This document shows, piece after piece, positions 3,135-54,605 of a DNA stretch of 64,000 nt. The number at the start of each line of letters is the position of its first letter. Position 1 is the first letter of the stretch. The notes under the pieces were generated by a model. That model was not told where the DNA came from, ran no database searches, and saw nothing but the letters and a program-made list of their open reading frames with translations. A program made the position numbers and the translations under genes. Source of the stretch: Trametes villosa (lineage: Eukaryota; Basidiomycota; Agaricomycetes; Polyporales; Polyporaceae); the NCBI GenBank assembly GCA_002964805.2, contig PUDQ02000003.1, positions 4,402,001 through 4,466,000 on the forward strand. The letters run 5' to 3'.

Positions 3135-4195
3135 AAAAGAGAGACACTCAGCTTCGGGTTGCACCGGGCTTCTCAGAATTGAAGGCCCTTATGACGCAGC
3201 GCGGCAGCACGGTCCTGAAGACCTAAAGCCGTAAGCCAGGTAACGGGTAGAAAAAGGAGATTAGGCGCATGCTGGTTTCCCCTTCCCTTCCGGGAAGGGT
3301 ACTTATCCCGAGGACCACGGAAAGGTCTGCGCCAGGATGAGCCGCGCGCGCGCGCAGCCCGCCCTCCCTCGAGAGAAAAAAAGCGAGAGAGGAAGACAGG
3401 AATAGCATCCCCCCTTCCCCTCCCGCTAGCGCACCAGGCTCCACGATTCCCGTAAGCACCCCAGCAAACATCGAAGGACTCCAGAACACCGACCAGAGCG
3501 CGTCAAAACGCAACATCCCCGAGATGCCAGCAGTCCCCTCGCTGCAGACAAGGGGGCTCGCGGTACCTCGGGCGAGTCGCAGATTGTGCGTCCGGTGTGA
3601 GTGGTCTCGTACTGCTTAGGCGGATGCTATTCACCTTGACCCACCACCACCGCTCGCGAGCACGGTGATGAGGCCCGGGTAAATCGCTCCCTGCCATCCT
3701 AGTACAAGACCACATCTGGGGTGCCCCGGAGTTCCCTGATGTCCGGCGTGCAGACAGGAATAAGTGGGGCCATGATGCGCGAGAAAGTGGGCTCGGGCCC
3801 CACGCAAACGAGGAAAAAAGAAAGTGGAGGACTCACCTGGAGGACAGCCGAAGGAGATAAAAGTTGGAGACTCACCGCAAGCACGAGAATCTGAAAGAAC
3901 GAGAATGCATGAGCTATACGTAGACGAACGACTGGAGAGAGAGCGTGTGTAGCATACCTTGAGGTGGCGAGTGGAGACTGACCGAAGACAGACTGGTAGA
4001 CACAGCTGAGCGCGGGGAGAGCAAAGCAGAAGATGGCGGTACGAAGGAAAGAGCATCGGGGCGGAAGGGCGGGGTGTTATACACCCAGCGGCGGCGGACG
4101 TTCGAACTGTCAGCCGCGTTCAGCCTCGCGCGCCAGATCGCGCCACACACGCGTCGCGCGGGAGCACGTGACCGCGATGCCGCGCGAAGCGAACA
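3135..4195 (-). repeat. Right arm of the ~1.05 kb imperfect inverted repeat
   Basis: This is the reverse-complement partner of 520-1575. Its outer end lies about 70 bp upstream of the TATA-like element (4263-4269) of the gene starting at 4292, so the arm forms the distal upstream region of that gene. The left arm has no such gene beside it. Confidence 0.8.
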
Positions 4196-5315: not shown

Positions 5316-5606
5316 CTACTTCCCGAGGTTGTCCGACCACGACTCGTACAGGTCAATCTCCTCCGTCAGCGCCCGGATCTTCTCCCGCACCAGCCCAATC
5401 GAGTCCTTCCCGAGCGGGAAGTGCAGCGGCGGGCTCGACAGCCGCGAGAACTCAATGATCTTCGCGACGGCGAGCGACGCGTCCGCGGGCGCGAGGTCCG
5501 CGGGCGTGTCGGCCTCTTTGCCCGCACCCTTGAGGAACGCGCCGCGGAAGTTGTAGACGGGGTGGGCGATCCCGGGATCATTACTGCAGTACTCACCTGG
5601 GACCAC
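5316..5606 (-). pseudogene. SDR oxidoreductase, truncated 3' fragment
   Basis: Only the downstream two thirds of the last exon of a short-chain dehydrogenase survives. From PVYNFRGAFLKGAGKEAD to the terminal SWSDNLGK it is nearly identical to the four complete SDR genes in this window (25.3, 41.9, 47.9 and 53.6 kb). The Rossmann nucleotide-binding motif, the Ser-Tyr-Lys active site and exons 1-3 are absent, and similarity stops at about 5575. This cannot encode an active enzyme. It lies 0.83 kb from a secreted-peptide gene, in the same relative order and orientation as the complete SDRs at 47.9 and 53.6 kb, so it is probably the remnant of the SDR of this cassette copy. Confidence 0.85.
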
Positions 5607-6436
5607 GACTCCGCTGGCGCGTCTTAGGAGCCACGAATGGCTGCCAGTGGGCCAACGATGGAAACTCGAACCAGCTGCGGTAGCATCGGTGATAAGTATC
5701 CTGTAGAGACTTCAGCTACCGATTGGTTCAATGACGACTTTACAAATTTACGCTGGAGCAACACCAACTCTTTGGCGGCGGGTGGGAGACCGGAACCACC
5801 ACCACACCCGCCGATCATAGGTGCACAGATGCAGCTTCTCAACGACTGTTCACAAAGACGTGTGAGATTGCACTGCTTTCGCCGTCGGAATGCTTGTTCA
5901 ACACTGACTGCCCTCAAGGTGTTTGTGACATGCGCGGAACCGACCCCAAGATCTGCCCGATGTCGAGCCCGGCTGGCGCAAACAGAAGGTAAGCACATGA
6001 ACGCCGGAAGCTCGAAAGTAGAAGGTACCCACGCGTCGCGAGCTCGCTTGAGGTACCACCCAATATTCACGTACCGCGATCCCGCTGCGCCGCAGACGTC
6101 AACCCGCGACCGAGCCACACAGCACCGCCTCCGAGTCTGCTCTGGAGTCTGCGCATCCTCGATGTCCCAGAATAAGTACACCCAGACGGCGCAGTCCCTG
6201 AGCATGACCATGGCAACCACCCGCGGCACCGCTCGATCTGTAGCTCTATTCGCCACCCTTCGATCCCAGGCCGCGGGCGTGCCTCATTTGCTGGGGTCAG
6301 TGCGGCGGCGGCAGCGGCGGAGACCTGTGCAGGTAAGGAGGGACTGCGGGCCCGCTGAGACGCATATAACAGCTCGTGCCGCGGTCGAGGCAGGTCTACT
6401 GTTCCCTGTCCCACTTGCCCATCGGTTCCGCCCTGC
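5607..6436. other. Intergenic; promoter region of the peptide gene, no other gene seen
   Basis: An open frame runs 5637-6590 on the plus strand but has low-complexity, codon-poor content and overlaps the peptide gene's first exon in another frame. I see no domain in it. A TATA-like TATAAC sits at 6365-6370, about 70 bp before the peptide gene ATG. Confidence 0.4.
6365..6370 (+). promoter_or_regulatory. TATA-like element of secreted-peptide gene 1
   Basis: GCATATAAC lies about 70 bp upstream of the ATG at 6437. The two paralogous peptide genes have a related GCATATAGG about 55 bp upstream of their ATGs, which supports the gene calls. Confidence 0.4.
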
Positions 6437-6675
6437 ATGCGTTCGCCGCTCTACACCCTCGCTTTTTCTCTCCTGCTCGCGCTGTCTGTTGCGGTCTCGT
6501 CTGTCGCTGCGGCACCCGTGGACAATGTCGGTAAGCGAGCACGCGCATATAGTCCGGAAGGGCAGCACTCACCGACGTGGTAGCGGTTAGCCCCGACGTC
6601 AGGACGGGTCTAGAGTGGCTCGTCCGGAGGAAACGCATCGTGGTAGCTATTGAACATACCACTTGTTCTTCTTAG
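6437..6675 (+). CDS. Small secreted peptide precursor 1 (61 aa), UstYa-linked
   Basis: Exon 1 is 6437-6530 (31 codons plus one base), the intron is 6531-6583 (GTAAGC donor, CTCAC branch site, TAG acceptor) and exon 2 is 6584-6675. The protein starts with a clear signal peptide (MRSPLYTLAFSLLLALSVAV) with likely cleavage before APVDN. The mature part of about 36 residues carries SP-x-x-RTG, then WLVRRKRIVVAIEH, and ends in TTCSS. RRKR is a potential Kex2-type processing site. Two paralogues (46467-46718 and 52166-52429, minus strand) have the same exon-1 length, intron phase and core motif, which is the main reason to believe a gene this small. It is tail-to-tail with a UstYa-family gene. Function is unknown; a RiPP precursor or small effector are the main options. 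Confidence 0.65.
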
Positions 6676-6993
6676 GGCGCCGCTGACACCAGTCCGTCAG
6701 ATGATAGCAGGGCGACACGGCTGACGGGCGTAGAGCCCGCCAAGCTTTCGAGGGATGGCAGGGGGTTTGGGGGTAAGATTGCGGATATTTATGAGGGTAT
6801 ATGCGCGCGAACCCCGTTGTACGATTATAGAGGACCCCCGAGGGGCGTTAGATAGACGAACCGACAGGAGCGGCATAAGCCTTGGGCGTCATGACGCCAA
6901 TATCATATAGCGACCCCGGCGTGCCTATAAACGTAGTAGTATGAGATCGCCTGTTCGATGAGACGATGAAACGAAGGGCAATCTGGTCGCAAC

Positions 6994-7674
6994 TCACGGA
7001 AGCAATGCCAAAAATACAAGGTTCGACGACCTCGAGCCGGCGTTCATCACAGCTCTCCCGCCCGCCTTCCCGCCTCCGCCTCCGCCGCCACCCACTCGCT
7101 GGTTCTCCTCCACCGCCCTATACACCGCGCGCCAGTCCAAACACCGGCGAATCGGGTTCGCGTCCACGGGCCTTACGTTCGACGGGTACTGGTACGGGTC
7201 GAGGTGCGTGTCCCCGCGGCACAGGATCATCTGCCGGATGTAGTTCATGCAGTGCCGCGCGGGCTGCTCCGTGCGCTGCGCGCGCGGCCGCGTGAGCTGC
7301 TCGCGCATGATGTCGAGGCAGCGCAGCTGGTGGAACATCGAGGGCAGGAAGGGCTCGCGGTGCGCGCCGAGGTGGACGAGCCCGTCGGAAGGGACGAGCG
7401 CGCGCCAGGCGGCGGAGGCGTTGAGGCCGTAGTGCAGTCCGCTGTCGAACTGGAAGGCGACGGGCTTGCGCTCGACGTCCCATACGCCGCCTGTGTGGTG
7501 CGTGTGAGCACAAAAAGTGAAAGAAAGAATGTGAATAACCTCACCGTTAATAGGCGGGGGCGTTGGCAGGTTGTATAGCCGAGTTAGACTGACCAGCTTG
7601 TAGGCAAAGTTCGCGACCAGAAGGGTTAACACGAACATGAGAGCAGTGGACTCCAGTCGGTACCAGGGCAGCAT
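6994..7674 (-). CDS. UstYa-family (DUF3328) oxidase-like protein A
   Basis: Exons 7674-7545 and 7490-6994 are joined over a 54-nt intron to give 208 aa. Residues 10-30 form an N-terminal membrane anchor. The family signature is present in two parts: HQLRCLDIMR (residues 97-106) and HCMNYIRQMILCRGDTHLDP (123-142). The usual first motif is HxxHC; here the second His is Arg, so metal or substrate binding may differ. The C-terminus has a Gly-rich run. UstYa proteins are membrane-anchored enzymes that oxidatively cyclise secreted peptides in fungal RiPP pathways such as ustiloxin; others act on other peptide or amide products. The gene converges on the secreted-peptide gene at 6437. Decayed copies of this same gene sit next to the two other peptide genes at 45.9 and 51.7 kb. 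Confidence 0.85.
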   Translation of the reverse strand: MLPWYRLESTALMFVLTLLVANFAYKLVSLTRLYNLPTPPPINGEVIHILSFTFCAHTHHTGGVWDVERKPVAFQFDSGLHYGLNASAAWRALVPSDGLVHLGAHREPFLPSMFHQLRCLDIMREQLTRPRAQRTEQPARHCMNYIRQMILCRGDTHLDPYQYPSNVRPVDANPIRRCLDWRAVYRAVEENQRVGGGGGGGGKAGGRAVMNAGSRSSNLVFLALLP

Positions 7675-8898
7675 GGTGAGGGGAGGAGGAAGTGGGGTGC
7701 AAAGAGAGTGCAGCGCTGAGATAGCACTCCTTTGTGGACCGAGCCGCCGAGCTAGAGGGATCCCAGAGAAAGCCAGGCAAACGAGGCGATATTCAGTACA
7801 TAATTCAGTGCAGAGGGATCCGCGTTTTCGGAAGAACACGGGGGCGGCGACACTGTGTCAGAAAGGTGGATGCTGGTCCAGTCGATGACAGCAGCAGATG
7901 AGTGGAGATGACTCCTGACTTCCGTCCACGGTGGTGAGCCCAGATGCACATTGGTTGCAGGGAGGCTGAGTTTTGCGGGAGTCTGAGGAGAAATGGTAAG
8001 TACAGGAACCTGGAGTTGACCGCTCGACTGGCTATGGATGAGGACGGCCGCAGCCTCGGGCCTTAGCTGGCGAGGCGGCGGTGATCAGACAAGTCACCAG
8101 ACGAGACAGCCGTTTACGATATAAAAGGGGTGCATGCATGTGGTATTACAGCCGGTCATACGTACGCTAGCTGTACCGTCCCTCGGCTAACCTGTGCAGA
8201 TCGAGAAACATGGAGGAAGGAGTTCAAGGAACAAGTTCAGAAGTCCCCTGCAGCCTGCAGTGCCGCTTTACCGCACCGATAGCCACGTGTACTGGTCGCG
8301 TGGCCGTGAACCTTAATTCCTCCCGCCTCTCCTCTCCGAGTCCAACGCTCCGACCCGGCACGAGCACCTCGTACACAACCACCGCTATCTGTTTCAGCAA
8401 CTAACCAACCCTATCATATCGCTCTTATGAGCTCGGCATGCGAGAAGGATCACAACGCATGTTCCAATAGGAACACCTTTGCATTGGCGCCGACATCAAG
8501 CGGTCGTTCTCACTGAGCCGCAGCTGGAGGACAATCATAGCCTTGCGATGCTTGCCATTCAGCGACAGAAGCTCAGTCCTCGATCCCTCCCAGGTGCGCC
8601 ACAACAATAAGGCCACTGCGTCGAATGGTATTGAAGTGCGGGACGCCCGCACAGCCAAAATAACACCGCATGCTTATCGGATTCCCATGCTCACGAGCCA
8701 CATACCGGAATCCCCAGTACGAGGATGCCCTCCAGAACGTCCAGAAGAATGAGCAGCGATTTCGTGAACGCAAGTGCAGTACTTGCAGGCTGTGCTCTTT
8801 GGGCCTCTTAGGACGCCCCGGCTTGCGGACGAAAGCTGCGCACACCCGCGACATTGAACGCCAACCCCCCGCTATCCCGCTACCCGCTTGCTCTCAGC
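7675..8898. other. Divergent intergenic region, 1.2 kb
   Basis: This separates the minus-strand UstYa A gene from the plus-strand membrane-protein gene. A strong TATAAAAG lies at 8120-8127 on the plus strand, and a 64-codon frame begins at 8210, about 90 bp downstream. The frame has no signal peptide, no similarity I recognise and biased Ser/Thr content, so I do not call it a gene. Otherwise nothing is seen. Confidence 0.4.
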
Positions 8899-9938
8899 AT
8901 GCCATCCAGACACGTATCCGAGGAGAATGTATCACTCCTCCAGGATCGCGACTCCTACGAATTGGAGGACGCCTATCAGACCCAGATCTCCCAAGACTCC
9001 AAGGGACCGGCACGCAAGCAGCTCACCCGCCGGCAGTACGCCCTCTTCTGGGGCGTCATCCTGCTCGGCGCGGTCACCCTCACCGACCTCCTCGCGCTGC
9101 TCTACATGTCGCGCATCATGACGATCGTCTACGCCGACGTCGGCACCGCGGACCTCGAATTCGCGAGCCCGTACTACGGCCTCGCGGAGCTCTACGGGTC
9201 CGGGATCATCAACGCGTCGCGCATCGCGCCGATCCTGAACACCCCCCGCGTCGTCGCGCAGGTGTTCAGCGACCGCCCAAATGAGCGCGCGCCGGTGGGC
9301 GAGCACGATGTGTTCGTTAAGGCGTTCGGGACGATGTCTCCGCACGAGAAGCACCTGCACGTCTCTGCGAGGGTGAGTGCCCTTTCACCATGTGCTTGAC
9401 TCTCGCGCTGACATTCACACACCTACCCGCCAGACGCACACCATCGTGCAATTCCGCACCATCGACTTCGGGATGGAAGACTGCGCGCTCGTCCTCCGCC
9501 TCCCCGGCGCGTCCGACCGCATCGAGAGCGCAGAGCCGTTCATACTCAGCCCGCACACGACGCTCGACGTCTTCCGCCTCGACGCGCCCAAGCCGCTCGA
9601 CGTCCGCGCGCTCTCGTACGCGACGCGGCCGCCCGTGAAGGCGAAGGTCGCGACGGTCGCGCCGCGCGCGGGCGAGGGGACGCTGGTCGCGCGCTTCCCG
9701 TGCGCGTGGAGCACGCTGCATACGTTCGAGATCGCGTGTGCGCTCGACCCGGGCTGTGCGCTCGACCCGGGCCCGGGCGCGAACGGGGGCGGAGGCGAGG
9801 AGGCGGGGTGTCTGGTGGACGTGTGGTCGAGCCAGAACACGACGTGGGGTGAGTGGCCGGTGCTGGCCTGTGTGCAATGCGTGGAACTGACTGGCGTGGA
9901 ACACAGGTGTGTATATGTATCAGTATCAGACCGTCTAG
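8899..9938 (+). CDS. Single-pass membrane protein of unknown function (306 aa)
   Basis: Three exons, 8899-9372, 9434-9848 and 9907-9938, are joined by GTGAGT/CAG and GTGAGT/CAG introns, ending in VYMYQYQTV. The start is the first ATG in frame; the frame is open further upstream, but only from a TTG. A short acidic cytosolic tail (1-40) precedes one transmembrane helix (about 48-70), giving a type II topology. The lumenal or extracellular part has the conserved-looking blocks TPRVVAQVFSD, IVQFRTIDFGMEDC, LDVFRLDAPKPLDVRALSY and a C-terminal WSSQNTTWG. From memory this resembles a family common in Agaricomycetes and sometimes annotated as But2-like, but I cannot confirm that. It lies between two UstYa-family genes and could belong to the same pathway. 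Confidence 0.75.
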
Positions 9939-10690
9939 GGCCGTGGGTGGGCGCGGCGGTGGAAGACGCGTCTTGTACCTCCGTTATCTTGGGGCACCAC
10001 CGAATGTACTGTACGATCATTGGAAGAATCGCAGGAACGCAACTCCCTCGTACGAATGATACCCCCGTGCAACAGATCCTGCAAGCCTTCGTCAGTCAGT
10101 GTTAAGTTGAGAATTCGGAACGTTGCATGCGATTGCCTGCCCCGCACCGCCAAACGAAATTTGCCCCGAATACAAGTAGATGCGCGATTATCAACACCGC
10201 CCTCTTCCGAGGTCGCGCAACTCACGAACGAACGCACCTGCGAAGAGGCTGATCACCACTCGTCAACCACATTCGTGCGGAATGTCTCCGCACTGGGTTG
10301 CACGCAGCCTCTCCACGGTGCGTCCACGAAGGAGCAGGCATGCTGCAACTGCGATAGCGTCCTGCTCCGAGGGCTATATTGCATCCGCGGGCGAAGCGCC
10401 ATGAAGGACGTCCTACTACACCGTTGGCAGCCGCCGCGGCGCATCGGAGGCAGCGCGACGGGAGATGAGACAGATTACGACCACCGTATAGGGCTGAGGC
10501 GCGGACGCGGACGCGCGAGGCCTTCCCGAGGTGCATTCCGTTCCAAGTTGCCCTGCATCGGTATGTGGGCGGGGGCGCGTTCGCGACTCGATCGTATGAG
10601 CGAACCCGTTGAGCTGAGCGACATGAGTCAGTAGGTATATGTGATACGGAGTCAGTGGAGGACGCACCGAACTCATCTTGGCACCACCCC
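9939..10690. other. Intergenic, 0.75 kb
   Basis: No supportable gene. Open frames on both strands are short or start only at non-ATG codons. The region presumably contains the promoter of UstYa gene B. Confidence 0.35.
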
Positions 10691-11359
10691 ATGTCGTCCC
10701 ACCGCGCAGCCGTCGCCTTCCTTGCCATATTCGCAGCTCTGAATGCGTACCTCGACGTCCTCCACATACGAGCGACGGAGAGGATGGCTCTCACGCGCAC
10801 GCCGCCGCCGTCACACTACAGTATGTGCATCCACACGCCATGTGCAGCTGTCCTCGTTGACGACGGCTGTCCAGCCTTCCTCGACGACGACTACACGCCG
10901 CGCCTCCCGCTCCCCTCCGCGCGCCGCGCCGTCAAGCTGACCATCGAGGACAGCGCGCACTACGCCCTCTTGGATGCGCCCGAAGCCGACGCCGAGTGGC
11001 TCTGGACGGCGACCGTTGGGGACGGGAATGTGCACCTCGGGGCCAACGCCCGCTTCTTCGTCGTCGGCGTCACGCACCAGCTGCACTGCATGCGCGCGTA
11101 CCGCCAGGCGCTCGCGCAGGCGCACCCGCCGCACGCGGGCGGGCACCAGGAGGGGCACCTTGCGCACTGCCTGAACTTCCTGCGCATGTCGACGCTGTGC
11201 GCGGCGGACGTCGCGCTCGAGCCGCCTGACGCACTGGAGCGCGATTTTGAGAGGGAGAGGGCGGGCGGGGAGCGTGAGTGCGCGGACTGGCCGGCGTTCT
11301 ATGACGAGATGAAGGTGAACTTCGAGAGCTGGATTGCGCACCAGGGGTCGGGGATGTGA
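10691..11359 (+). CDS. UstYa-family (DUF3328) oxidase-like protein B
   Basis: Exons 10691-10820 and 10875-11359 give 204 aa. The 54-nt intron (GTATGT donor, GTTGAC branch, CAG acceptor) is in frame, so it could be read through, but UstYa A has an exon 1 of the same 130-nt length, the same phase and the same intron length, which argues that it is spliced. Residues 5-22 form a membrane anchor. The signature HQLHC (111-115) is complete, followed by HCLNFLRMSTLC (141-152). Unlike protein A, both histidines of the first motif are kept. The C-terminal ECADWPAFYDEM block is also typical of the family. It is the fourth intact gene of the 6.4-11.4 kb group and, with protein A, gives the locus two UstYa paralogues, as in the ustiloxin cluster (ustYa/ustYb). 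Confidence 0.85.
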   Translation: MSSHRAAVAFLAIFAALNAYLDVLHIRATERMALTRTPPPSHYSMCIHTPCAAVLVDDGCPAFLDDDYTPRLPLPSARRAVKLTIEDSAHYALLDAPEADAEWLWTATVGDGNVHLGANARFFVVGVTHQLHCMRAYRQALAQAHPPHAGGHQEGHLAHCLNFLRMSTLCAADVALEPPDALERDFERERAGGERECADWPAFYDEMKVNFESWIAHQGSGM

Positions 11360-11611
11360 AGGTTGGTTGTATGTTGAGCGCGCATGCTCCTCCGACGCGG
11401 TATCACGCATGACACTGAACAATAGGACTGTAGTCGCCGTTTGTGCATTTGGGACGAGTGTTTGAGCGATGAACTGTAGTCTATACGAGTAGTGCCCTAC
11501 GATGTCCTGTAAGTAATTCACGTCAGTAACGGATCGGCTTTCCAGTTAGGACATGCAGTAGGGTAGAAGATACCTGTATGCCTTTACGATCGCTTGCAGT
11601 TCCACGGCGCC

Positions 11612-12740: not shown

Positions 12741-12749
12741 CTACGGTGT

Positions 12750-25295: not shown

Positions 25296-26348
25296 TTACT
25301 TCCCTAGGCCCTCCGACCACGACTCGTACTCGTCGATCTCCTTCGTGAGCGCCTGGACCTTCTCGCGCGCGAACGCGATCGAGTCCTTGCCGAGCGGGAA
25401 GTGCAGCGGCGGGCTGGGCAGCCGCGCGAGCGCGAGGATCTTCGCCACGGCGGGCCCGGCCTCGACGGGCTGCAGGTCCGCCTCCGCGTCCGTCTCCTCG
25501 CCCGCGCCCTTCAGAAACGCGCCGCGGAACTGGTAGACCGGGAGCGCGGGGTTGTTGTATGCGGGGTGCTGCGGGATGAGGATCATGTTCGTGCCGAGGT
25601 TGAAGACGGAGGTCTTGAATGAGCCGGGCTCGATGATCGAGACCTGAAGGTCGGGTGGTCAGAAGGTGTGTCGGGTAGATGGCGAGGAAAGGTGCTTACC
25701 TTAATGTTCCAGGCGGGGTCGAGCTCCTTCGCAAGAGACTCGCTGAAGCCCTCAAGAGCTATCACGCACGAACTGTCAGCAACACGCAGCAGCGACGACA
25801 TACTCAATGAACTCACCATGCTTCGACGCCGCGTAGAACCCAATGATCGGCGCGCCCGCCAGGCCCGCCATCGAGCTGTTCTGTAAGAGAAGCCCGCCCT
25901 GCGGCTTGTTCTCTTCCCGGAAGAACCGCACCGCACGCTGCGACACGTGCACCGCGCCCCAGAAGTTCACCTCGACCTGCGAGCGCGCGACGTCGTCCGG
26001 GAAGGACTCGTTCTCGCCGACGGCGACGAAGCCGGCGTTGTTGAACACGACGTCAATGCGACCGAAGGCCGCCTTAGCCTGCGCGAATGCGGCGTCGATT
26101 TCGTCGATCTTTGTGACGTCAAGCTTGACCACGCGGAGGCGGTTGGAGGGGTATTTCGCGGTGAGGTCGTCGAGCACGGAGGGCTTGCGGAGGGTGGCGA
26201 CGACTTTGTCGCCGCTCTCGAGGGCTTGGATGACCGTCTCGCGGCCGAAGCCGGTGGAGGAGCCAGTGACTGTAAAATGACATGATGTTAGACGCGAAGT
26301 AGCGGTGGAAGGGAAAGACTTACTGAGCCAAACGCGGGATGCAGACAT
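25296..26348 (-). CDS. Classical SDR oxidoreductase A (294 aa)
   Basis: Exons 26348-26324 (25 nt), 26269-25817 (453), 25758-25700 (59) and 25643-25296 (348). The same four lengths occur in the three other full copies. The NAD(P)-binding motif TGSSTGFG is at residues 10-17 and is created by the first splice (WL-ITG). NNAG is at 85-88, the catalytic Ser is about 140 (QNSSM) and YAASK is at 154-158. The Asn of the tetrad is in VNFWG. There is no signal peptide, so it is probably a cytosolic NAD(P)H-dependent dehydrogenase or reductase. The substrate is unknown. It is the most diverged full copy (IGF-YAASK, LALARLPSPP near the C-terminus). A TATAAG lies about 80 bp upstream on the minus strand. 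Confidence 0.9.
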
Positions 26349-41804: not shown

Positions 41805-41892
41805 CGCGCGGTGTTCGAGCAGAGCAGAGAACACCACCCAACCACTCCAGCCTCATTCAGCACTCGCACCACCCACAGCACCCCTCATAACA

Positions 41893-42946
41893 ATGTCTGC
41901 ATCCCGCGTCTGGCTCAGTAAGTGCTTGTTATATCTCTCCCATGGATACCTCAGCTTAAATCCTACCCCACAGTCACTGGTGCCTCGTCTGGCTTCGGCC
42001 GCGAGACCGTCATCCAAGCCCTCGAGAGTGGCGACAAAGTCGTCGCCACCCTTCGCAAACCCGCCGCGCTCGACGACCTCACTAAGAAGTACACCTCCGA
42101 CCGCCTCCGCGTCGTCAAGCTCGACGTCACCAAGCCCGACGAGATCGACGGCGCATTCGCACAGGCGAAGGCGGCCTTCGGGCGCGTTGACATTGTATTC
42201 AACAACGCCGGCTACTTCGCGGTGGGCGAGAACGAGGCGTTCCCGGACGACGTCGCGCGGCCGCTGTTCGAGGTGAACTTCTGGGGCGCGGTGCATGTGT
42301 CGCAGCGGGCGGTGCGGTTCTTCCGGGAGGAGAACACGCCGCAGGGCGGGCTGCTGTTGCAGAACAGCGCGATGGTCGGGCTTGCGGGTATGCCTGCCAT
42401 AGGGTTCTACTCTGCGACGAAGCATGGTGAGCGGTCCCGCTGGTCTGTGCCGTCTGGGCTGTTGCTGATTCGGTTTGTGCAATAGCGCTCGAGGGCTTCA
42501 GCGAGTCTCTCGCGAAGGAGGTCGACCCTGCTTGGAACATCAAGGTGATATCTCCCGCACAATACATACCCGGGCCATCCAGCTAACCCACCCTACAGGT
42601 CGCGATAATCGAGCCCGGCGCGTTCAAGACCTCCGTCTTCAACCTCGACACCAACATGATCCTCGTCCCTCAGCACCCCGCCTACACCAACCCCGCCCTC
42701 CCCGTCTACAACCTCCGCGGCGCATTCCTCAAGGGCGCCGGCAAGGAGGCCGACACGCCCGCAGATATCGCGCCCGCCGACGCGTCGCTCGCCGTCGCGA
42801 AGATCATCGAGTTTTCCAAGCTGTCGAGCCCGCCGCTGCACTTCCCGCTCGGGAAGGACTCGATTGGGCTGGCCCGGGAAAAGATCAGGTCGCTGACGGA
42901 GGAGATCGACCAGTACGAGTCGTGGTCGGACAACCTCGGGAAGTAG
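41893..42946 (+). CDS. Classical SDR oxidoreductase B (294 aa)
   Basis: Exons 41893-41917, 41974-42426, 42486-42544 and 42599-42946 (25, 453, 59 and 348 nt). TGASSGFG is at residues 10-17, NNAG at 85-88, Ser about 140 and YSATK at 154-158: a complete classical SDR active site. It differs from C and D in a few positions (YFAVG for YVAVG, KEVDPAW for KELDPAW, PAIGF for PVIGF). It begins the tandem array and is tail-to-tail with F-box copy 2. Its 3' flank matches that of SDR C, while its 5' flank differs, so it marks the left edge of the duplicated block. Confidence 0.92.
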
Positions 42947-43365: not shown

Positions 43366-45183
43366 TTACCAGTAGTAGTAGCCGCTCACCTCGAACTCAT
43401 ACTCACTCGACACCATCGCGCGCAACTGCGCCGTCGTCTGCTCGTCCACGTAACGCTCGTCTGGCGACCCCCGGTATACTTCAACCAACAAGGAGCTCAG
43501 CGGTTGCGCGCCAGCAGTCTTGCGGCCTCGCAGACACTTCAGGACCGCGCCTAGGATCGCCCCGCCGTCCCAGATGAATCCGTGAAGGCTCAGATCCCGG
43601 AGCTTCGGGCAACGTACTCGGCTCTGCTCCGAGCCCGCGACGTCGGGAGTACAGGCCAAAGACTGCAAGAGGCACGGCGGAATGGGGCCAAGGACTCGTG
43701 GCGGTGACGTGATGGACAGGAATTTGAGCCGCGGGAAGGCATCGAACAGCAGGTCCCAATCACCCGTCGTGGCCTCCCGCAAGTCGGTACGAAGGCTGAG
43801 CGACTTCAGGACCGAGGGGTCGAGGAGCGTCCTCATCGGCGTGAGCACATTCCCCGGCGTGAAAGCGGTATCTTGGGGGTACGTTAGGTCGAGAGATACC
43901 TCGACAGGCCGGCTGCAGTGGTGAAAGCAGAGACTGCTGATTGTTTGTACGACCATGAAATAGTGCGTGTTCTGTACGAACTGTGCGCCTCCAAGTTGAC
44001 GGAGACCCGGAAGCAGGAGGTCCCATGGGTCCAGAGGCCCGGCACCGTTGAGGTCTTCAGAGCTGAGCTTCCCATCGAGTTCGACACGGCCGCGAGAAGG
44101 GAGGTGCACGTGGGTCGTGAACTCCTGGACCCATCGTACCGTGTCTTTGATCGAAAGTTCGTTCAGCTTGGGGAGGTGGAAAGGATCCTTGGAGGGGGAG
44201 GGGAAGTCGGAGCAGGCCGTATCCATGAAACACTTGAGTGTGAGGTATTCCAGGTGGCGCGCGCATTGAAGCATGTCGAAAAAGGTGTCGCCAGTTATAC
44301 GGTCAGAAGGAGCGACGGAGCAGTTTGTCAGGGATAGGGTGGTAAGACGAGAAAAGAGCGGCGGCGTCAGCTGGACGACAATGCACTCCAACTCCAGGAA
44401 GGCGAGCTGGGGGAACTTCTCCAAGACAAGAATAAAGGGCTGAGGGACTTGGCCGTCCCATATGCCGTGATTCTGGATTTGGAGCCTTGTGAGGGAAGGG
44501 AAGATGCCCCCAATCAACTGGGAGAGCTCCGCGACTTGACGTGCCGAACCTCTTCCGAGAACCAAGGATACCATTCGGTCGCGGAGAGGTATGACCTCCG
44601 GTAAGAGTTTCGTGAGCGTCGGCAGGTCGTCGAACTCCAGATCCAGTAGCATACCGTGGGCTCGAGACAGCGCGAGCCGGAACCATCTTCGACGCTTAAA
44701 GACGACTATGGTACTCCAGAAAGCTCCGTGGTCGAGGATGACACAACGCCAGTGGCGGCAAACGCTCATGTAACGTATGGGGTCGACGTTCTTCCGGTTC
44801 CGTCTTGGTCGGGGGTATACACCGAGAAGGATCTGGACGAGTACCTCGACAGGTAGCTTGTTGATTGAAGCGAACGAGTTCCACATTGCGCCAAGAGTGA
44901 GGGGGTCCACTATTGGCTGATCGCAACCCACTGCAGACGACGCCTCAACGGCTGTGAGGGCAACCTGCGTATGTATCAACGCATCTAGATCGGGGGTGAC
45001 TCGACCTCGGACGGAGGCCTCGGAAGCACTGGAAGAGACCGGGCCAGCTATATCCCTGGTACGGTTGCGTTGTAAGGGTGCCTCGGCCAACGTCGCGTGG
45101 TGGTCGGGGTGTGTAGTGGCTTCGGTGGTCACTCGCTCTACGTCTGGAGTAGCTGAGTCACAGACAGCGCGTATGGCGACCAT
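43366..45183 (-). CDS. F-box protein, copy 2 (605 aa)
   Basis: The first in-frame ATG is at 45183; the frame is open to 45270, but only from a GTG. The F-box is SINKLPVEVLVQILLGV with SVCRHWRCVILDHGAFWSTI. Leucine-rich irregular repeats follow (FPSLTRLQIQN, LAFLELECIVVQL, LFSRLTTLSLTNC). It is closely related to copy 3 at 49187 along its whole length. Copy 3 has an ATG at the position where this gene has ATA, so the two proteins probably differ at the N-terminus. It is probably an SCF substrate adaptor. It shares its 3' intergenic region with SDR B. Confidence 0.78.
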   Translation of the reverse strand: MVAIRAVCDSATPDVERVTTEATTHPDHHATLAEAPLQRNRTRDIAGPVSSSASEASVRGRVTPDLDALIHTQVALTAVEASSAVGCDQPIVDPLTLGAMWNSFASINKLPVEVLVQILLGVYPRPRRNRKNVDPIRYMSVCRHWRCVILDHGAFWSTIVVFKRRRWFRLALSRAHGMLLDLEFDDLPTLTKLLPEVIPLRDRMVSLVLGRGSARQVAELSQLIGGIFPSLTRLQIQNHGIWDGQVPQPFILVLEKFPQLAFLELECIVVQLTPPLFSRLTTLSLTNCSVAPSDRITGDTFFDMLQCARHLEYLTLKCFMDTACSDFPSPSKDPFHLPKLNELSIKDTVRWVQEFTTHVHLPSRGRVELDGKLSSEDLNGAGPLDPWDLLLPGLRQLGGAQFVQNTHYFMVVQTISSLCFHHCSRPVEVSLDLTYPQDTAFTPGNVLTPMRTLLDPSVLKSLSLRTDLREATTGDWDLLFDAFPRLKFLSITSPPRVLGPIPPCLLQSLACTPDVAGSEQSRVRCPKLRDLSLHGFIWDGGAILGAVLKCLRGRKTAGAQPLSSLLVEVYRGSPDERYVDEQTTAQLRAMVSSEYEFEVSGYYYW

Positions 45184-45903
45184 TGCAGAGCATGTCCCCG
45201 TAGGAGAATGCGTACAAGAAACAGAGTGCTCCGGTGCATCGGGGGCCTCTTCAGGCTGGCGCTGAGACACTCCCGCCGGGCTGAAGGGGCAAGGAGATCA
45301 AGTTAGCATGAGAAGCCGTGAAGTTTTACGAGGCGGTTACCGAGAACGTTTCCTGCGAATATATCTTGCGATTTCGTCGAACATCGCTGTCGAACACCCG
45401 AGCTCTCTCAAGTTGAGAAAGCGGGAACTTGGACGGCGGATTGAACGACTCTTCTACCCCAAGTTGCTGCCAGTGGGTGTGCAGGACTCAAAGAGGTTCA
45501 CAGCCACGTGGCTGACTTTGCGCGGCACTCCGGCGCTTCTGAACTTTCCCTTCAACACTTCCTCACATACTTGCGAGTCGCGGCCCGAATTGAACGGTTG
45601 ACTCAACCACCACGCATGCTGGCGTAGTTCTCGCCGATTTATGTGAACTGCATTCCTAGAAATTTGTGTCTTGCTACCAGCTGCCACGTCGCCAGCGAAG
45701 GCTGACCTCGCTGTGTCGTCGGACAAACTGATCCTCGCCCGAGGACTCCCCGTCATGCACTTGATTCAAGTTGGAAGCCAATGCTGGTTAGTGATCAAAT
45801 CCCGGGATAACAGGTTAGCCTCACAACTCATATAGTCTATCAATCCAGAGAACTCTTAGTGCGCTCACTTTGTTAGACGAAAATCTGGAGTATTTCAATT
45901 GCA

Positions 45904-46104
45904 TCCATGCGATCCCTCGATGTCGTGCGTAACCAGCTCCCAGATCCGCACAGCTGGTGGTTCGGGACGTCGTACACGCAACGCTGCATGAACTACGTCC
46001 GGCAGAAGATGCTGTGCCGCGGCATCATGCACTGGGCTCGTACCAGTATCTTCCGAACGCCAGCCCCATCAACGCGACTACCTGGACTAGCGCACCGCTC
46101 CTAG
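45904..46104 (+). pseudogene. UstYa (DUF3328) fragment, cassette copy 2
   Basis: About 65 codons resemble the centre of UstYa A: SLDVVRNQLPDPHS against its CLDIMREQL region, then RCMNYVRQKMLCRG against HCMNYIRQMILCRG. The upstream half with the membrane anchor and the first His motif is missing, the second motif begins RC instead of HC, and similarity ends in out-of-frame sequence matching the DPYQYPSN segment. This is a decayed gene. It points at peptide gene 2, the same tail-to-tail arrangement as the intact pair at 6.4-7.7 kb. Confidence 0.8.
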
Positions 46105-46466: not shown

Positions 46467-46718
46467 TCAGGGATACTTGGCAACAGAGATATGAGGGATA
46501 GCTACCACGATGTGCTCTCGGCGAGCTAGCCACGCTGGACCTGTCCTGCCAGCGTTCGGGCTGAGCGCTGTTATTCAGGTGAGCATCGCGACACTTCTTG
46601 ACTAGATTGAGGGTTCTTGCTTACCAGCATCCTCTACGGGGACCGCGACGACAGGTGCAAGCGTGGCGAGCAGTGGGACCAGGAAGGTGAATAGGAGCAT
46701 GCGGAAGAGGGTGCGCAT
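46467..46718 (-). CDS. Small secreted peptide precursor 2 (64 aa)
   Basis: Exon 1 is 46718-46625 (94 nt), the intron is 46624-46568 (57 nt, GTAAGC donor, CTCAC branch, CAG acceptor) and exon 2 is 46567-46467. The signal peptide is MRTLFRMLLFTFLVPLLATL, with likely cleavage near AVA/VPVEDA. The mature part has RTGPAWLARREHIVVAIPH, then ISVAKYP. Exon 1 length, intron phase and core motif match gene 1, from which it differs at about half of the positions, so conservation at protein level is meaningful. Its Tyr and Pro near the C-terminus distinguish it from copy 3, where a 4-bp indel changes the frame after IPH. Confidence 0.65.
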
Positions 46719-47851: not shown

Positions 47852-48899
47852 ATGTCTGCGTCTCGCGTTTGGCTCAGTAAATGCTCTCATGCTTTGCTGC
47901 ACCCAACCAAACTGACCTATTGCCTCGCAGTCACTGGTGCCTCGTCTGGCTTCGGCCGCGAAACCGTCATTCAGGCCCTCGAGAGCGGCGACAAAGTCGT
48001 TGCCACCCTTCGCAAGCCCGCCGCGCTTGACGACCTCACCGGGAAGTACCCCGCCTCTCGCCTGCGCGTCGTCAAGCTCGACGTCACCAAGCCCGACGAG
48101 ATCGACGCCGCGTTCGCGCAGGCGAAGGCCGCCTTCGGGCGCGTCGACGTCGTGTTCAACAACGCCGGGTACGTCGCGGTGGGCGAGAACGAGGCGTTCC
48201 CGGACGAGGTCGCGCGGCCGCTGTTCGAGGTGAACTTCTGGGGCGCGGTGCACGTGTCGCAGCGGGCGGTGCGGTTCTTCCGGGAGGAGAACACGCCGCA
48301 GGGCGGGCTGTTGTTGCAGAACAGCGCGATGGTCGGGTTGGCGGGCGTGCCCGTCATCGGTTTCTACTCCGCGACGAAGCATGGTGAGTGCTCTACGCAT
48401 GCTACACCAGCTTCTTTACTGATCTACTTCGTGTGTCAGCTCTTGAGGGCTTCAGCGAGTCTCTCGCAAAGGAGCTCGACCCCGCCTGGAATATCAAGGT
48501 AAGACTGAATGCGCATTGCGTACAAGTACTCTTGGCTAACCCGCGCTGCAGGTCGCGATCATCGAACCCGGCGCATTCAAGACATCCGTCTTCAACCTCG
48601 ACACCAACATGATCCTCGTGCCCCAACACCCCGCCTACACCAACCCTGCCCTCCCCGTCTACAACTTCCGCGGCGCGTTCCTCAAGGGCGCCGGCAAGGA
48701 GGCCGGCACCCCAGCAGACCTCGCGCCCGCGGATGCGTCGCTCGCCGCCGCGAAGATCATCGAGTTTTCCAAGCTGTCGAGCCCGCCGCTGCACTTCCCG
48801 CTCGGGAAGGACTCGATTGGCCTGATCCGGGAGAAGATCCGGGCTCTGACGGAGGAGATTGACAAGTACCAGTCGTGGTCGGACAACCTCGGAAAGTAA
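47852..48899 (+). CDS. Classical SDR oxidoreductase C (294 aa)
   Basis: Exons 47852-47876, 47931-48383, 48440-48498 and 48552-48899. TGASSGFG (10-17), NNAG (85-88), Ser140, Tyr154 and Lys158 are all present, so it should be an active NAD(P)-dependent oxidoreductase. It is very close to copy D; differences include PDEVARP for PDDVARP and ASLAAAKII for ASLAVAKII. It lies head-to-head with peptide gene 2 across about 1.1 kb and tail-to-tail with F-box copy 3. Confidence 0.92.
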
Positions 48900-49186: not shown

Positions 49187-51211
49187 TTACCAGTAGTAGA
49201 ACCCGCTCGCCTTGAACTCATACGCTCCCGACACCATTGCGCGCAACTGCGCCGTGCCCTGCTCGTCCTCGTAACGCTCGCTCGGCGACGGCTGATATAC
49301 GTGAACCAACAAAGAGTTCAGCGGTTGCGCGCCACCACCCTCACGGGCCCGCAGGCACTCCAGTATCGCGCCTAGGATTGCGCCGCCGTCCCAGAGGATT
49401 CCGAGAAGGCCCAGGCTCCGAAGCTTTGGACAGCGTACTCGAGTCCGCTCCGAGCCCGCGACGTCGGGAGTTGGGGCCAAAGACTGCAAGAGGCACGGCG
49501 GAACGGGAGCGAGGACTCGCGCCGGCGACGTGATGGACAAGAAGTCGAGCAACGGGAACGCGTCGAAGAGCAGGTCCCAATCGGCCGTCGCGACCTGCCA
49601 CAAGTCGGTACGAAGGCTGAGCGCCTCCAATACCGTGGGATTGAAGAGCGTCCTGATCGACGCGAGCAAGTTCCCCGGCGTGAAAGTGGGATAGTGGGGG
49701 TAAGTGAGGTCGAGAGATACATCGACATGCCTGCTGCAGTGGCGAAAGCTGAGGATGCTTGTATTTGTGTTGACCAGGAAATGACGGGTATCCTGTACGA
49801 ACCGCGCGCCGTTAAGCTGACGGAGCCCCGGAAGCAGAAGGGTCCATGGATCCAGAGGCCCGGCATTATTGAGGTCTTCAGAGCTGAGCGCCCCATCGAG
49901 TTTGACGCAGCCGCGAGAAGGGAGGTGTAGGAGTGTCGCGAACTGCTGGACCCATCGTACCGTATCTCTGATCGAAATACTGTCCAGTTTGGGGAGGTGG
50001 AAAGGATTCTTGGAGGGGGAGGGGAGGTCAGAGCAGGCCGTATCCATGAAACGTTCGAGGGTGAGGTGTTCCAAATGGCGCGCACTTTGAAGCATGTCGA
50101 AAAAGACGTCGCCAGATATACGATCAGAAGGAGCGACGGAGCAATCTGTAAGACATAGGGTGGTAAGACGAAAAAAGAGCGGTGGCGTCAGCTGGACGAC
50201 AATGCGCTCCAACTTCAGGAATGCGAGTTGGGGGAACTTCTCCGAGAAGAAGACAAAGGGATGAGGGATGGGGGCAAGACCGTCCCAGATGCCGTTATTC
50301 TGGACTTGGAGTTTTGTGAGAGAAGGGAAGACGCTCTCCGTCAACTGGGAGAGCCCCGCAATCCGATGTATCGAACGTTTTCGAAGCACCAAGGATACCA
50401 ACCGGTCGCGGAGAGGTATGACTTCTGGCAGGAGTTTCATGAGCGTCGGCAAGTCGCTGAACTCTAGCTCCAGTGGCATGCCGTAGGTTCGAGACAGCGC
50501 GAGCCGAAACCACCTTCGACGCTGAAAGACGACTATGGTATTCCAGAAAGCTCCGTGGTCGACGATGACACGACGCCAGTGTCGGCAAACCCCCATGTAA
50601 TGTAAGGGGTCAATGCTCTTCCGGTCCCAACTTGATCGGAGGCGTACACCGAGAAGGATCTCGACGAGTAGCTCGACAGGTAGCTTGTTGATTGAAGCAA
50701 ACGTGTTCCACACCGTGCCAAGGGTAAGGGGATCCAGTATTGGCTCGCCGAAAGCCCCCGAAGACGACGTCGCACCGGCTGTGAGGGCAGCCTGTGTATG
50801 TGGCGTCAGCGCATCCGAATCGTGGGTGACCTGATTGCACGCGAAAGCCTGAGGAACATTGGGAGAGTCCGGACCGGCTAGATCCCCGGTAGTTTTGTGT
50901 TGTAACGGCTCATCGGCCAACGTCGCGTGGTGGTCGGGGTGCGTGGTCTCGTGCATGGTCTCGATAGCCGCTTCCTGTACGTCCAGAGAAGCAGAGTCAC
51001 GGACGCCGCGTACGGCGACTATTTCCGAGCATGTCTGCGGTTCAGGAAGGGCACAGGGACCAGAAGGCTCGGGTGCTTCGGCGGCCTCTTCAAGCTGAGG
51101 CGGAGGTAGTCCTTGGAGGCTGAAGAGTGCAAGGAGTTCAACGCATGAGCCACGCGAGACTCGGCCATGAAATCTAACGGGACTGTTACCGAGAACGTTT
51201 CTTGCGAACAT
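49187..51211 (-). CDS. F-box protein, copy 3 (674 aa)
   Basis: A single exon opening at a true ATG at 51211. The first 60 residues precede the region alignable with the predicted copy 2 protein, so an internal start or a short upstream intron is possible. The F-box is SINKLPVELLVEILLGV with GVCRHWRRVIVDHGAFWNTI, followed by leucine-rich irregular repeats ending in the same GxYEFxxSGxYYW tail as copy 2. It is probably an SCF adaptor. The many substitutions in the repeat region relative to copy 2, against nearly identical intergenic DNA in the same units, suggest faster change in the substrate-binding part, but this needs counting. Confidence 0.78.
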   Translation of the reverse strand: MFARNVLGNSPVRFHGRVSRGSCVELLALFSLQGLPPPQLEEAAEAPEPSGPCALPEPQTCSEIVAVRGVRDSASLDVQEAAIETMHETTHPDHHATLADEPLQHKTTGDLAGPDSPNVPQAFACNQVTHDSDALTPHTQAALTAGATSSSGAFGEPILDPLTLGTVWNTFASINKLPVELLVEILLGVRLRSSWDRKSIDPLHYMGVCRHWRRVIVDHGAFWNTIVVFQRRRWFRLALSRTYGMPLELEFSDLPTLMKLLPEVIPLRDRLVSLVLRKRSIHRIAGLSQLTESVFPSLTKLQVQNNGIWDGLAPIPHPFVFFSEKFPQLAFLKLERIVVQLTPPLFFRLTTLCLTDCSVAPSDRISGDVFFDMLQSARHLEHLTLERFMDTACSDLPSPSKNPFHLPKLDSISIRDTVRWVQQFATLLHLPSRGCVKLDGALSSEDLNNAGPLDPWTLLLPGLRQLNGARFVQDTRHFLVNTNTSILSFRHCSRHVDVSLDLTYPHYPTFTPGNLLASIRTLFNPTVLEALSLRTDLWQVATADWDLLFDAFPLLDFLSITSPARVLAPVPPCLLQSLAPTPDVAGSERTRVRCPKLRSLGLLGILWDGGAILGAILECLRAREGGGAQPLNSLLVHVYQPSPSERYEDEQGTAQLRAMVSGAYEFKASGFYYW

Positions 51212-51728
51212 ATTTCACGATTTTGTCGAGCATCGCTGTCGAGCGCAACCGGCTCAGGCTGTGGTTCCGTGTCGGCAAGGATGTTCAACACCCAGCCACG
51301 TGGCTGCCATGTGCGGCACCTCCCTGAGCATGCGCGCTTCTGAGTTTTTCCTTACCTCCTCCTCCCAGTACCTCACATACGTCCGAGTCGTGGCTGTAAC
51401 TGAGTCGGATAAGCCACCATGCATGCTCGTGTGATTGTCCTTTCTGCTTTTTGTCAACTGCTAGAACTCTCTGCTGTTTAGTCGCCGCCATCTCGTCAGC
51501 GGCCAGTGTCCTTGACTGCTTGTAGTGTTGTCCAATCCCACCCAACTCCCGAGGGTTCGCCACCATGAAATCAATTGCAAGTCAGCGCAGGTTAGTGCTC
51601 GAATTCAACTCGTCGACAGATCCGCACCCTCACCACTGATGTAAATTTATCTGTAGAACTCCATTGCTCACCGGCCCTCGTCTTAGACGAAAAACTCGAG
51701 CATTGCTTGCGCATCAGCGGAGATCGTT

Positions 51729-51900
51729 GTGGTGCGCGACCAGCTCACGGAGCCGCACAACCAGCCTGGGACGCCGTACATGCAACATTGCATGAACTAC
51801 GTTTGGGAGGTGATCCTTTGCCACGGCCTCGTGCACTCGGCTCGTACCAGTGTTCTCCAAACGCCGGGCCCGTCGAATCTCGATGAGGCTGCCCGACGGG
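51729..51900 (+). pseudogene. UstYa (DUF3328) fragment, cassette copy 3
   Basis: Contains VRDQLTEPHNQ and QHCMNYVWEVILCHG, matching the second UstYa motif (HC kept, but RQ changed to WE and CRGD lost). The first half of the gene and the membrane anchor are missing. It points at peptide gene 3 as in the other two cassettes, and decayed independently of copy 2 in detail. Confidence 0.78.
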
Positions 51901-52165: not shown

Positions 52166-52429
52166 TCATTGCGTCAGGGATACTTGGCGACAGAGAGAAG
52201 GATGAGGGATAGCTACCACGATGTGCTCGCGGCGGACTAGCCACTCTGGACCTGTCCTGCCAAGGTTCGCGCTGAGCGCTGTTATTCAGGTGAGCATTGC
52301 TGCGATTTCCGGCTAGATTGAGAGCTCTCGCTTACCAGCATCCTCTACCGGGACTGCGACGACAGGTGAGAGTGTGGCGAGCAGTGGGATCAGGAAGGTG
52401 AATAGGAGCATGCGGAAGAGGGTGCGCAT
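52166..52429 (-). CDS. Small secreted peptide precursor 3 (68 aa)
   Basis: Exon 1 is 52429-52336 (94 nt), the intron is 52335-52279 and exon 2 is 52278-52166. The signal peptide is MRTLFRMLLFTFLIPLLATL. The mature region has RTGPEWLVRREHIVVAIPH, then PSLCRQVSLTQ. Up to IPH it is nearly the same as peptide 2. After that a 4-bp length difference shifts the frame, so the last 11 residues are unrelated to those of copy 2 and add a cysteine. The ARR/VRR site before the core would suit a Kex2-like protease. It lies beside a decayed UstYa copy, so if processing needs UstYa it would have to come from the 7 kb or 10.7 kb gene. Confidence 0.62.
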
Positions 52430-53443: not shown

Positions 53444-53450
53444 TATAAAG
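53444..53450 (+). promoter_or_regulatory. TATA box of SDR D
   Basis: TATAAAG about 110 bp upstream of the ATG at 53557. Confidence 0.55.
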
Positions 53451-53556: not shown

Positions 53557-54605
53557 ATGTCTGCTTCCCGCGTCTGGCTCAGTAAGTGTCCTTGCGGTTC
53601 GCTACACTCAACCAAACTCACCAATCCCCCCGCAGTCACCGGTGCCTCGTCTGGCTTCGGTCGCGAGACCGTCATCCAAGCGCTCGAGAGCGGCGACAAA
53701 GTCGTCGCAACCCTCCGCAAGCCCGCCGCCCTTGACGACCTCACCTCTCAGTACCCCGCCTCCCGCCTCCGCGTCGTCAAGCTCGACGTCACCAAGCCCG
53801 ACGAGATCGACGCGGCTTTCGCGCAAGCTAAAGCCGCGTTCGGGCGCGTCGACGTCGTGTTCAACAACGCCGGGTACGTCGCGGTCGGCGAGAACGAGGC
53901 GTTCCCGGACGACGTCGCGCGGCCGCTGTTCGAGGTGAACTTCTGGGGCGCGGTGCACGTGTCGCAGCGGGCGGTGCGGTTCTTCCGGGAGGAGAACACG
54001 CCGCAGGGCGGGCTGCTGCTGCAGAACAGCGCGATGGTTGGGCTTGCGGGAGTACCCGTCATCGGCTTCTACTCCGCGACGAAGCATGGTGAGTGCTCTG
54101 CGCATGCTACACTAGCTTCTTTACTCATCCGCTTCGTGTGTCAGCTCTTGAGGGCTTCAGCGAGTCTCTCGCAAAGGAGCTCGACCCGGCTTGGAACATC
54201 AAGGTAGGACTTCTCGTGTCTGTGCCCTATGCACACTCAGCTAAAATACGAACACAGGTCGCGATCATCGAGCCCGGCGCGTTTAAGACCTCCGTCTTCA
54301 ACCTCGACACCAACATGATCCTCGTCCCTCAACACCCCGCCTACACCAACCCCGCGCTCCCCGTCTACAACTTCCGCGGCGCATTCCTCAAGGGCGCCGG
54401 CAAGGAGGCCGATACCCCAGCAGACCTCGCGCCCGCCGACGCGTCGCTCGCTGTCGCGAAGATCATCGAGTTCTCAAAACTCTCGAGCCCGCCGCTGCAC
54501 TTCCCGCTCGGGAAGGACTCGATTGGGCTGATCCGGGAGAAGATTAGGGTGCTGACGGAGGAGATTGACCAGTACGAGTCGTGGTCGGACAACCTTGGGA
54601 AGTAG
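53557..54605 (+). CDS. Classical SDR oxidoreductase D (294 aa)
   Basis: Exons 53557-53581, 53636-54088, 54145-54203 and 54258-54605, with the same four lengths as the other full copies. The coenzyme motif TGASSGFG, NNAG and the Ser-Tyr-Lys set are intact. The intron between exons 2 and 3 is almost identical to that of SDR C, as expected for a recent duplicate. It is followed head-to-tail by F-box copy 4, whereas A, B and C each face an F-box gene tail-to-tail. Confidence 0.92.

Follow-up and report, generated by a model that had tools for sequence, protein, structure and literature searches.

Copies in decay of an SDR/peptide/DUF3328 unit and a putative half-site DUF3328 subfamily in Trametes villosa

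The asperipin-2a cluster of Aspergillus flavus (aprA, aprY, aprT and aprR) is described as having four genes, for a precursor, a DUF3328 protein, a transporter and an isoflavone reductase, and ustiloxin is described with two DUF3328 proteins, UstYa and UstYb (PMC6514808). In Trametes villosa, a 64,000-nucleotide stretch of contig PUDQ02000003.1 (C3:4402001-4466000; genome size, 46.7 Mb), here called the window, carries a DUF3328 gene next to a small two-exon gene for a putative secreted peptide, on whose other side lies a short-chain dehydrogenase/reductase (SDR) sequence. A preliminary description of the window had read this set, found at three places, as a candidate system for a ribosomally synthesized and posttranslationally modified peptide (RiPP). 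The three sets are copies of one unit in decay and not three working sets, and the DUF3328 protein beside the peptide is of a type, called half-site here, that lacks two histidines of the paired HxxHC motifs.

Like the asperipin-2a cluster, the locus is small and joins a precursor-like gene to a DUF3328 gene and a reductase gene. The core of AprA is FYYTGY and AprR is an isoflavone reductase, whereas the peptide here has a single core without a conserved tyrosine, the reductase is a classical SDR and the adjoining DUF3328 protein is half-site. A dedicated transporter was not recognized; the Pfam scan of 30 long frames of the window, with short exons outside the scan, found no methyltransferase or transporter domain except an Atg22-like effluxer at 57.4-58.3 kb. 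As for ustiloxin, two DUF3328 genes lie near a peptide that looks secreted and dibasic-cut, but repeats, a tyrosinase and an S41 peptidase were not seen here, and one of the two DUF3328 proteins is without two copper histidines. The Kex2-processed repeat proteins (KEPs) likewise have a signal peptide, a dibasic site and an adjoining DUF3328 gene, but they are defined by repeats, which Kex2 sites separate. Repeated cores, whether of the KEP or the dikaritin kind, were absent from the five peptide copies of this genome (61-69 amino acids), each of which has a single segment after the dibasic site. In Basidiomycota, a DUF3328 gene is reported near 103 of 1680 KEPs, and some DUF3328-linked KEP types carry a di-histidine instead of tyrosine (PMC7329392). 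In Pleurotus, 6 of 16 UstYa-like genes are reported to be developmentally expressed (PMC8893723). With these two reports, the general idea of basidiomycete DUF3328-linked peptides is not new. Where lichen clusters lack repeats, the presence of just one core has been raised as a possibility (PMC12048977). In the literature searched, no paper linked UstYa to Polyporales or Trametes, and none linked DUF3328 to Agaricomycetes.

The DUF3328 gene adjoining peptide copy 1 and a second one, about 3 kb away with one gene between, scored 44.3 bits (frame 6997-7857) and 49.5 bits (frame 10613-11356), respectively, against PF11807 (cut-off, 25). The motifs of the adjoining protein are HQLRC and PARHC, and it does not show the HxxHC(x)nHxxHC signature of binuclear copper DUF3328 enzymes of the CctR type. 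DUF3328 was established in 2025 as a family of copper-dependent enzymes; in the hydroxylase CctR, a binuclear copper enzyme, alanine mutants of the His and Cys residues of this signature are inactive (PMC12435403), whereas the half-site group has HxxRC ... xxxHC. Motif 1 is without its second histidine and motif 2 without its first in 49 of 51 database homologues, which are those nearest to one query and not a survey of the DUF3328 family. In these 49, the second histidine of motif 1 is replaced by arginine (48 proteins) or glutamine (1 protein). The two exceptions are P0030, without only the second histidine of motif 1, and P0032, with all four histidines. An unrooted tree was made of 93 proteins (99 minus P0080 and five of less than 145 amino acids, P0032 among these); all 48 half-site sequences fell to the same side of a branch supported at 100/99, P0030 fell among them, and three sequences belonged to no group. 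Besides polypores, the half-site sequences span Mycena, Crucibulum, Coprinopsis, Auricularia and Rickenella. Judged by its sequences, the half-site type is a conserved, old agaricomycete subfamily without two of the four binuclear-site histidines. A narrow literature search on the motif found no prior description. In the Protein Data Bank (PDB), searched by sequence, the half-site protein had three matches only (E 0.7-0.91), all to unrelated chains, and the full-site protein had none. Modelled with AlphaFold2 from 41 sequences, the T. cingulata orthologue (mean predicted local distance difference test score [pLDDT], 78.8; predicted template modelling score [pTM], 0.59) has, like CctR, an N-terminal membrane-type helix and successive motif-bearing helices: helix 94-110 carries motif 1 (97-101), and helix 118-135 carries motif 2 (120-124). 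The half-site group opens a direct test between a mononuclear-copper enzyme, a dead partner subunit or another function, and for genome mining it means that the presence of UstYa need not be the presence of a UstYa oxidase.

The second DUF3328 gene of the window has both motifs (HQLHC and HLAHC), and HxxHC/HxxHC was found in 32 of 33 database homologues of its protein, the remaining one being without that region in the alignment. Both window proteins are nearest to proteins of Trametes, Lenzites and relatives (71-79% identity in the top rows of the protein-database search). Half-site and full-site proteins were located on contigs of identical length in 7 of the 10 species with rows in both lists (L. 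betulinus, T. cingulata, T. maxima, T. sanguinea, T. elegans, T. polyzona and T. cinnabarina), identical length being taken as the same contig, so that the pairing is known from lengths and not from gene order. The count used 19 named species from one list and 16 from the other, leaving out eight distant named species of the former and Sparassis of the latter (each absent from the opposite list) and the second T. sanguinea row, P0080. Cross-species coincidences of identical length were 0 of 294. Protein names are two apart in T. elegans (492139/492141) and T. cinnabarina (g5/g3), as if one gene stood between, like the arrangement in the window. The metagenome pair P0024/P0076 also shares its longest contig, of 24080 bases. 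By these lengths and names, the half-site gene and a full-site homologue seem to share a contig in several Trametes relatives.

The C-terminal end of the half-site gene in the window is frame-shifted relative to its downstream copy, a change beyond the motifs. By eye, the two copies differ less in exon 2 (window 7490-6994 versus C3:4556995-4556546) than in exon 1 and the intron, which suggests constraint or gene conversion. Other DUF3328 genes of the genome are grouped too, at C4:34680-39152, C9:29308-30952, C9:73732-83191 and C3:3671709-3700112. Altered motifs occur at C9:82838 (RQLRC/HVHHC) and C4:52147 (YELHC/HVERC). The gene at C4:34680 is of the half-site type, and no peptide was recognized by eye in the frames neighbouring it.

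Genome searches, for which exon 2 of either peptide type and the copy 2 DNA served as queries, detected five peptide copies, all within the last 275 kb of C3. Three are in the window, and two are beyond it, 96 and 148 kb from the nearest window counterparts. The spliced proteins of the five copies have 61, 69, 64, 68 and 68 amino acids. The preliminary description had counted three secreted-peptide genes of 61-68 amino acids with a signal sequence and a dibasic site, and this is borne out in the window by three homologous two-exon open reading frames of 61, 64 and 68 amino acids (copies 1, 2 and 3, respectively), each with a hydrophobic N-terminus and WL.RR..IVVAI.H. All five copies share the ATG and an exon 1 of 94 nt; their introns are of the GT-AG type and 53 or 57 nt long, exon 2 keeps the same frame, and upstream of each is a GCATATA box followed by GAGGCAGG. 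The hydrophobic N-terminus and RR are likewise present in all five, which is the signal-peptide and Kex2-site trait of dikaritin precursors as far as sequence can tell; the peptides look like real secreted, dibasic-cut precursors. Between peptide types there are 61-62 differences per 168 nt, with frame, splice sites and signal-peptide character kept in the five copies, and the sole length change before the RR motif is one in-frame codon indel. The C-termini had also been called variable; the ends do differ, but in copies 2 and 3 the variation arises from small indels after IVVAIPH. No tyrosine is conserved in the five copies, and after the RR site there is neither tyrosine nor tryptophan, except for one tyrosine in copy 2. 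Alternative readings of the peptide genes, with the next acceptor AG or without splicing, gave short other tails.

The protein of copy 3 is identical to that of C3:4549937-4550200. Around copy 3 (about 52.1-52.5 kb) and its counterpart (C3:4549.9-4550.3 kb), identity is 99-100% over four 100-column blocks, and the flanking blocks match at 71 to 99%; gene conversion between the two regions is possible. A 15-base block, CATCGTGGTAGCTAT (window 6636-6650), does not vary among the five copies even at synonymous sites, and its surroundings differ. Its invariance may be due to constraint at the DNA or RNA level, to conversion or to chance.

The ratio of nonsynonymous to synonymous substitution rates (dN/dS) between peptide types was 0.31-0.42 for the core and 0.34-0.48 for the whole peptide. 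In neutral simulations, which assumed uniform sites and whose figures are uncorrected for the testing of several related pairs, equally few amino-acid changes occurred in 544, 128, 773 and 268 of 5000 runs for the four between-type pairs. This signal is carried by exon 2 (45, 25, 329 and 139 of 2000 simulations). In exon 1, a hydrophobic uncharged stretch is kept despite 40-41 of 93 bases differing, which neutral simulation matched in 1244, 1170 and 1340 of 20000 runs for three pairs. The kept structure, the dN/dS ratios and the simulations taken together make a coding gene likely, not certain.

With relics counted, the order and orientation of UstYa, peptide and SDR given in the preliminary description hold at all three loci. 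Its claim that each set has a UstYa-family gene and an SDR gene holds only in part. The UstYa gene is genuine beside copy 1, but at 45.9 and 51.7 kb there are only UstYa relics, with no Pfam match at E 0.1. The SDR genes of cassettes 2 and 3 are of full length, but cassette 1 has a C-terminal fragment only. The classical SDR profile adh_short was matched by the copy at 53.5 kb; the other copies were assigned by homology, and the fragment at 5.3 kb had no match. The recurrence of a conserved set at three places does not stand as such. The stretches at 43.3-48.9 and 49.1-54.6 kb are a tandem duplication with 80% identity in the F-box part and 88% in the peptide-SDR part. Since one ancestral unit was copied, the threefold presence is no independent support.

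The unit occurs twice more on C3, where SDR and DUF3328 copies were called gene length by tblastn. The first occurrence has the SDR at C3:4548795-4547744, the peptide at 4549937-4550200 and a UstYa relic at about 4550493-4550599, a blastn match to the cassette 2 relic. The second, at about C3:4553432-4557162, is the most complete, with the SDR (4554481-4553432), the peptide (4555934-4556196) and DUF3328 (about 4557162-4556546) all of gene length; such a trio is found only in this copy, outside the window. Overall, a full-length SDR is beside four of the five peptides and a full-length DUF3328 gene beside two, and three have a UstYa relic with the peptide still open. One ancestral unit of an SDR gene, a small secreted-peptide gene and a DUF3328 gene, accompanied in the tandem units by an F-box gene, was duplicated and reshuffled within the final 275 kb of the contig, and most copies lack some part. 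For genome mining, cassettes in triplicate may thus be one decaying copied unit.

Much of the window has a rearranged second copy further along C3, as indicated by the following matches. C3:4541000-4554794 is the inverted counterpart of window 61327-47526 (88% over 13.9 kb), and C3:4555440-4566999 is the direct counterpart of window 5916-16860 (84-86%, two pieces). Further direct matches involve window 17.0-21.1 kb (87%), about 23.0-24.0 kb (73%) and 33.5-35.0 kb (90%, at C3:4583051-4584562), and inverted ones window 21.6-22.5 kb (82%) and 57.3-58.5 kb (88%, at C3:4543845-4545045). A stretch downstream of the window recurs in part, inverted, at C3:4533094 (83%). By these matches, the truncated SDR of cassette 1 adjoins a breakpoint of the rearrangement. 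In the second copy, and not in the window, a full-length SDR is the neighbour of peptide copy 1 and its UstYa gene. The opposite SDR pieces at 5.3 kb (-) and 41.9 kb (+) would fit an inversion of the intervening stretch. The second copy may be either a duplication or the other haplotype of a dikaryon joined into one contig; if it is the haplotype of the other nucleus, the peptide copies per nucleus would be three and two. The argument from decay holds both ways, so the probabilities of the readings weighed below are the same for duplication and haplotypes. The stretch just upstream of the window (C3:4394001-4395800) recurs at 4384861-4386313 (97%) and 4622625-4624091 (92%), and since it is found three times on C3, the contig end is rich in similar copies.

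The explanation preferred here combines a decaying copied unit, a probable peptide and half-site and full-site DUF3328 partners, and as a whole it is about evenly balanced between right and wrong. The peptide product would enter the secretory pathway and shed its signal peptide, and a Kex2-type protease would cut after RR (or RRKR), freeing a short C-terminal peptide with IVVAI.H. The half-site DUF3328 protein, encoded one gene from the full-site one, would serve as its partner. Several results weigh against this explanation. Within peptide types, the dN/dS of the two pairs was 0.50 and 0.42 for the core and 0.47 and 0.64 for the whole, and the neutral simulations (1809 and 412 of 5000) indicate weak selection. 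Exon 1 alone showed no amino-acid constraint (613 to 1363 of 2000 simulations). Among 279 shared-word candidates from the four-peptide alignment, the protein database gave no homologous peptide at E 10 or better; since that search needs 5-residue words in common, it would overlook a peptide that is more diverged or unannotated. UstYa proteins of related Trametes species are present in that same database. Pfam gave nothing usable for the peptide, one of four members matching DUF7327 at E 0.12. The peptide genes are probably real and coding, on moderate sequence evidence. On the side of the enzymes, the contigs of the two DUF3328 genes differ in length in D. squalens, T. gibbosa and T. versicolor, and the last two have the full-site gene but half-site rows in the list that stand further off (46% identity in each). 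Because the motifs sit in two successive helices of the model, the two retained histidines could together be the ligands of one copper site, and the two lost ones those of the second, a pairing read from the model. We infer that the half-site protein most likely acts as partner of the full-site protein and not as a lone copper oxidase. That the peptide is not a gene at all and is a noncoding relic carried along by duplication is improbable. The weak selection signal, the want of an annotated homologue, the C-terminal ends changed by indels and stop changes, and the 15-nt block invariant at synonymous sites too would agree with such a relic, but the frame, splice sites and signal-peptide character were kept in five copies through the many differences between types.

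A RiPP precursor, whose Kex2-freed C-terminal peptide the DUF3328 pair would oxidize or cross-link while the SDR served as tailoring reductase, much as for asperipin-2a, is unlikely, and the RiPP role proposed in the preliminary description is unproven. What remains of that proposal is a precursor-like peptide with a genuine DUF3328 gene adjoining copy 1, a canonical one about 3 kb further and, in the most complete copy, a position of the peptide between SDR and DUF3328. Asperipin-2a manages with four genes (PMC6514808), and the di-histidine KEP types do without tyrosine (PMC7329392). Against it, core repeats and, but for copy 2, aromatic Tyr/Trp residues after RR are lacking, the peptide is retained beside three relics, the DUF3328 protein next to the precursor is HQLRC/PARHC and so short of two copper histidines, the SDR fits classical SDR models and the protein-database search found no homologous peptide. 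Exon-wise searches of the genome gave seven tyrosinase matches, only on C1, C20 and C87 and none in the cluster, and no match to S41 peptidase. Some accepted dikaritin clusters are without a tyrosinase or an S41 peptidase. A plain secreted peptide (signal, defence or effector-like) that was copied together with the SDR and linked to DUF3328 incidentally is a serious possibility, somewhat short of an even one. Full-length SDR genes accompany the peptides more often than DUF3328 genes do, and the family was found only in this region of C3. At nine other UstYa stretches (11 of 15 PF11807 hits; C3:3.67-3.70 Mb, C4 and C9), peptide matches were at chance level (best E 0.29) and no SDR was close. 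Two SDR paralogues without a peptide imply that the SDR link is not strict either, and the most complete copy keeps all three genes, both of which speak against incidental linkage. As for the proposed partners, it is doubtful that the two DUF3328 proteins act on the peptide. Very unlikely is the most specific form of this idea, in which the half-site protein gave up one copper site (Arg in place of the second His of motif 1, Pro or some other residue in place of the first His of motif 2) and a mixed dimer with the full-site partner oxidizes a secreted, Kex2-cut single-core peptide without a conserved tyrosine. If true, basidiomycetes would have a system for peptide modification with an asymmetric DUF3328 dimer at its base.

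Features of the window and peptide copies outside it (window positions unless marked C3)
Feature	Position	Strand	Basis
SDR C-terminal fragment, residues 200-294 of 294	5319..5609	-	tblastn, 82% identity; no Pfam match
Peptide gene copy 1, exon 1, signal-peptide-like N-terminus	6437..6530	+	five-copy alignment, spliced translation
Peptide gene copy 1, exon 2, terminates GLEWLVRRKRIVVAIEHTTCSS	6584..6675	+	genome search, alignment, spliced translation
Half-site DUF3328/UstYa gene, HQLRC/PARHC, two exons, intron 7491-7544 read from sequence	6994..7674	-	PF11807, E 2.5e-11
Gene between both DUF3328 genes, C-terminal part weakly But2-like, bounds approximate	8890..10105	+	PF09792, 24.0 bits (cut-off 24.2)
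Full-site DUF3328/UstYa gene, HQLHC/HLAHC	10691..11359	+	PF11807, E 6.3e-13
SDR paralogue, no peptide neighbour	25299..26348	-	tblastn; no peptide match near
SDR paralogue, no peptide neighbour	41890..42945	+	homology (tblastn)
F-box gene, duplicated unit 2, open frame	43369..45297	-	PF12937, E 6.7e-6
UstYa relic, cassette 2, 42 aligned residues, 43%	45907..46032	+	tblastn; no Pfam match
Peptide gene copy 2, exons 46718-46625 and 46567-46467	46467..46718	-	genome search, alignment, spliced translation
SDR gene, cassette 2, full length	47852..48899	+	tblastn
F-box-like gene, duplicated unit 3, open frame	49190..51214	-	69% amino-acid identity over 615 amino acids to 43369-45297
UstYa relic, cassette 3, 36 aligned residues, 44%	51729..51836	+	tblastn; no Pfam match
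Peptide gene copy 3, exons 52429-52336 and 52278-52166	52166..52429	-	genome search, spliced translation
SDR gene, cassette 3, full length	53557..54605	+	PF00106 (adh_short), E 7.3e-30 on frame 53449-54204; tblastn
Peptide copy outside window	C3:4549937-4550200		genome search
Peptide copy outside window	C3:4555934-4556196		genome search

Two further elements of the window were observed. Positions 528-1583 and 3134-4189 form an inverted repeat, whose arms, each about 1.06 kb long, are 83% identical and stand about 1.5 kb apart. An element of about 100 bases at 31571-31661 (-) is repeated on C10, C1 and C3 with 76-92% identity. ARAGORN reports it as a tRNA gene with an ambiguous anticodon, and by eye it resembles an intron-bearing tRNA gene.

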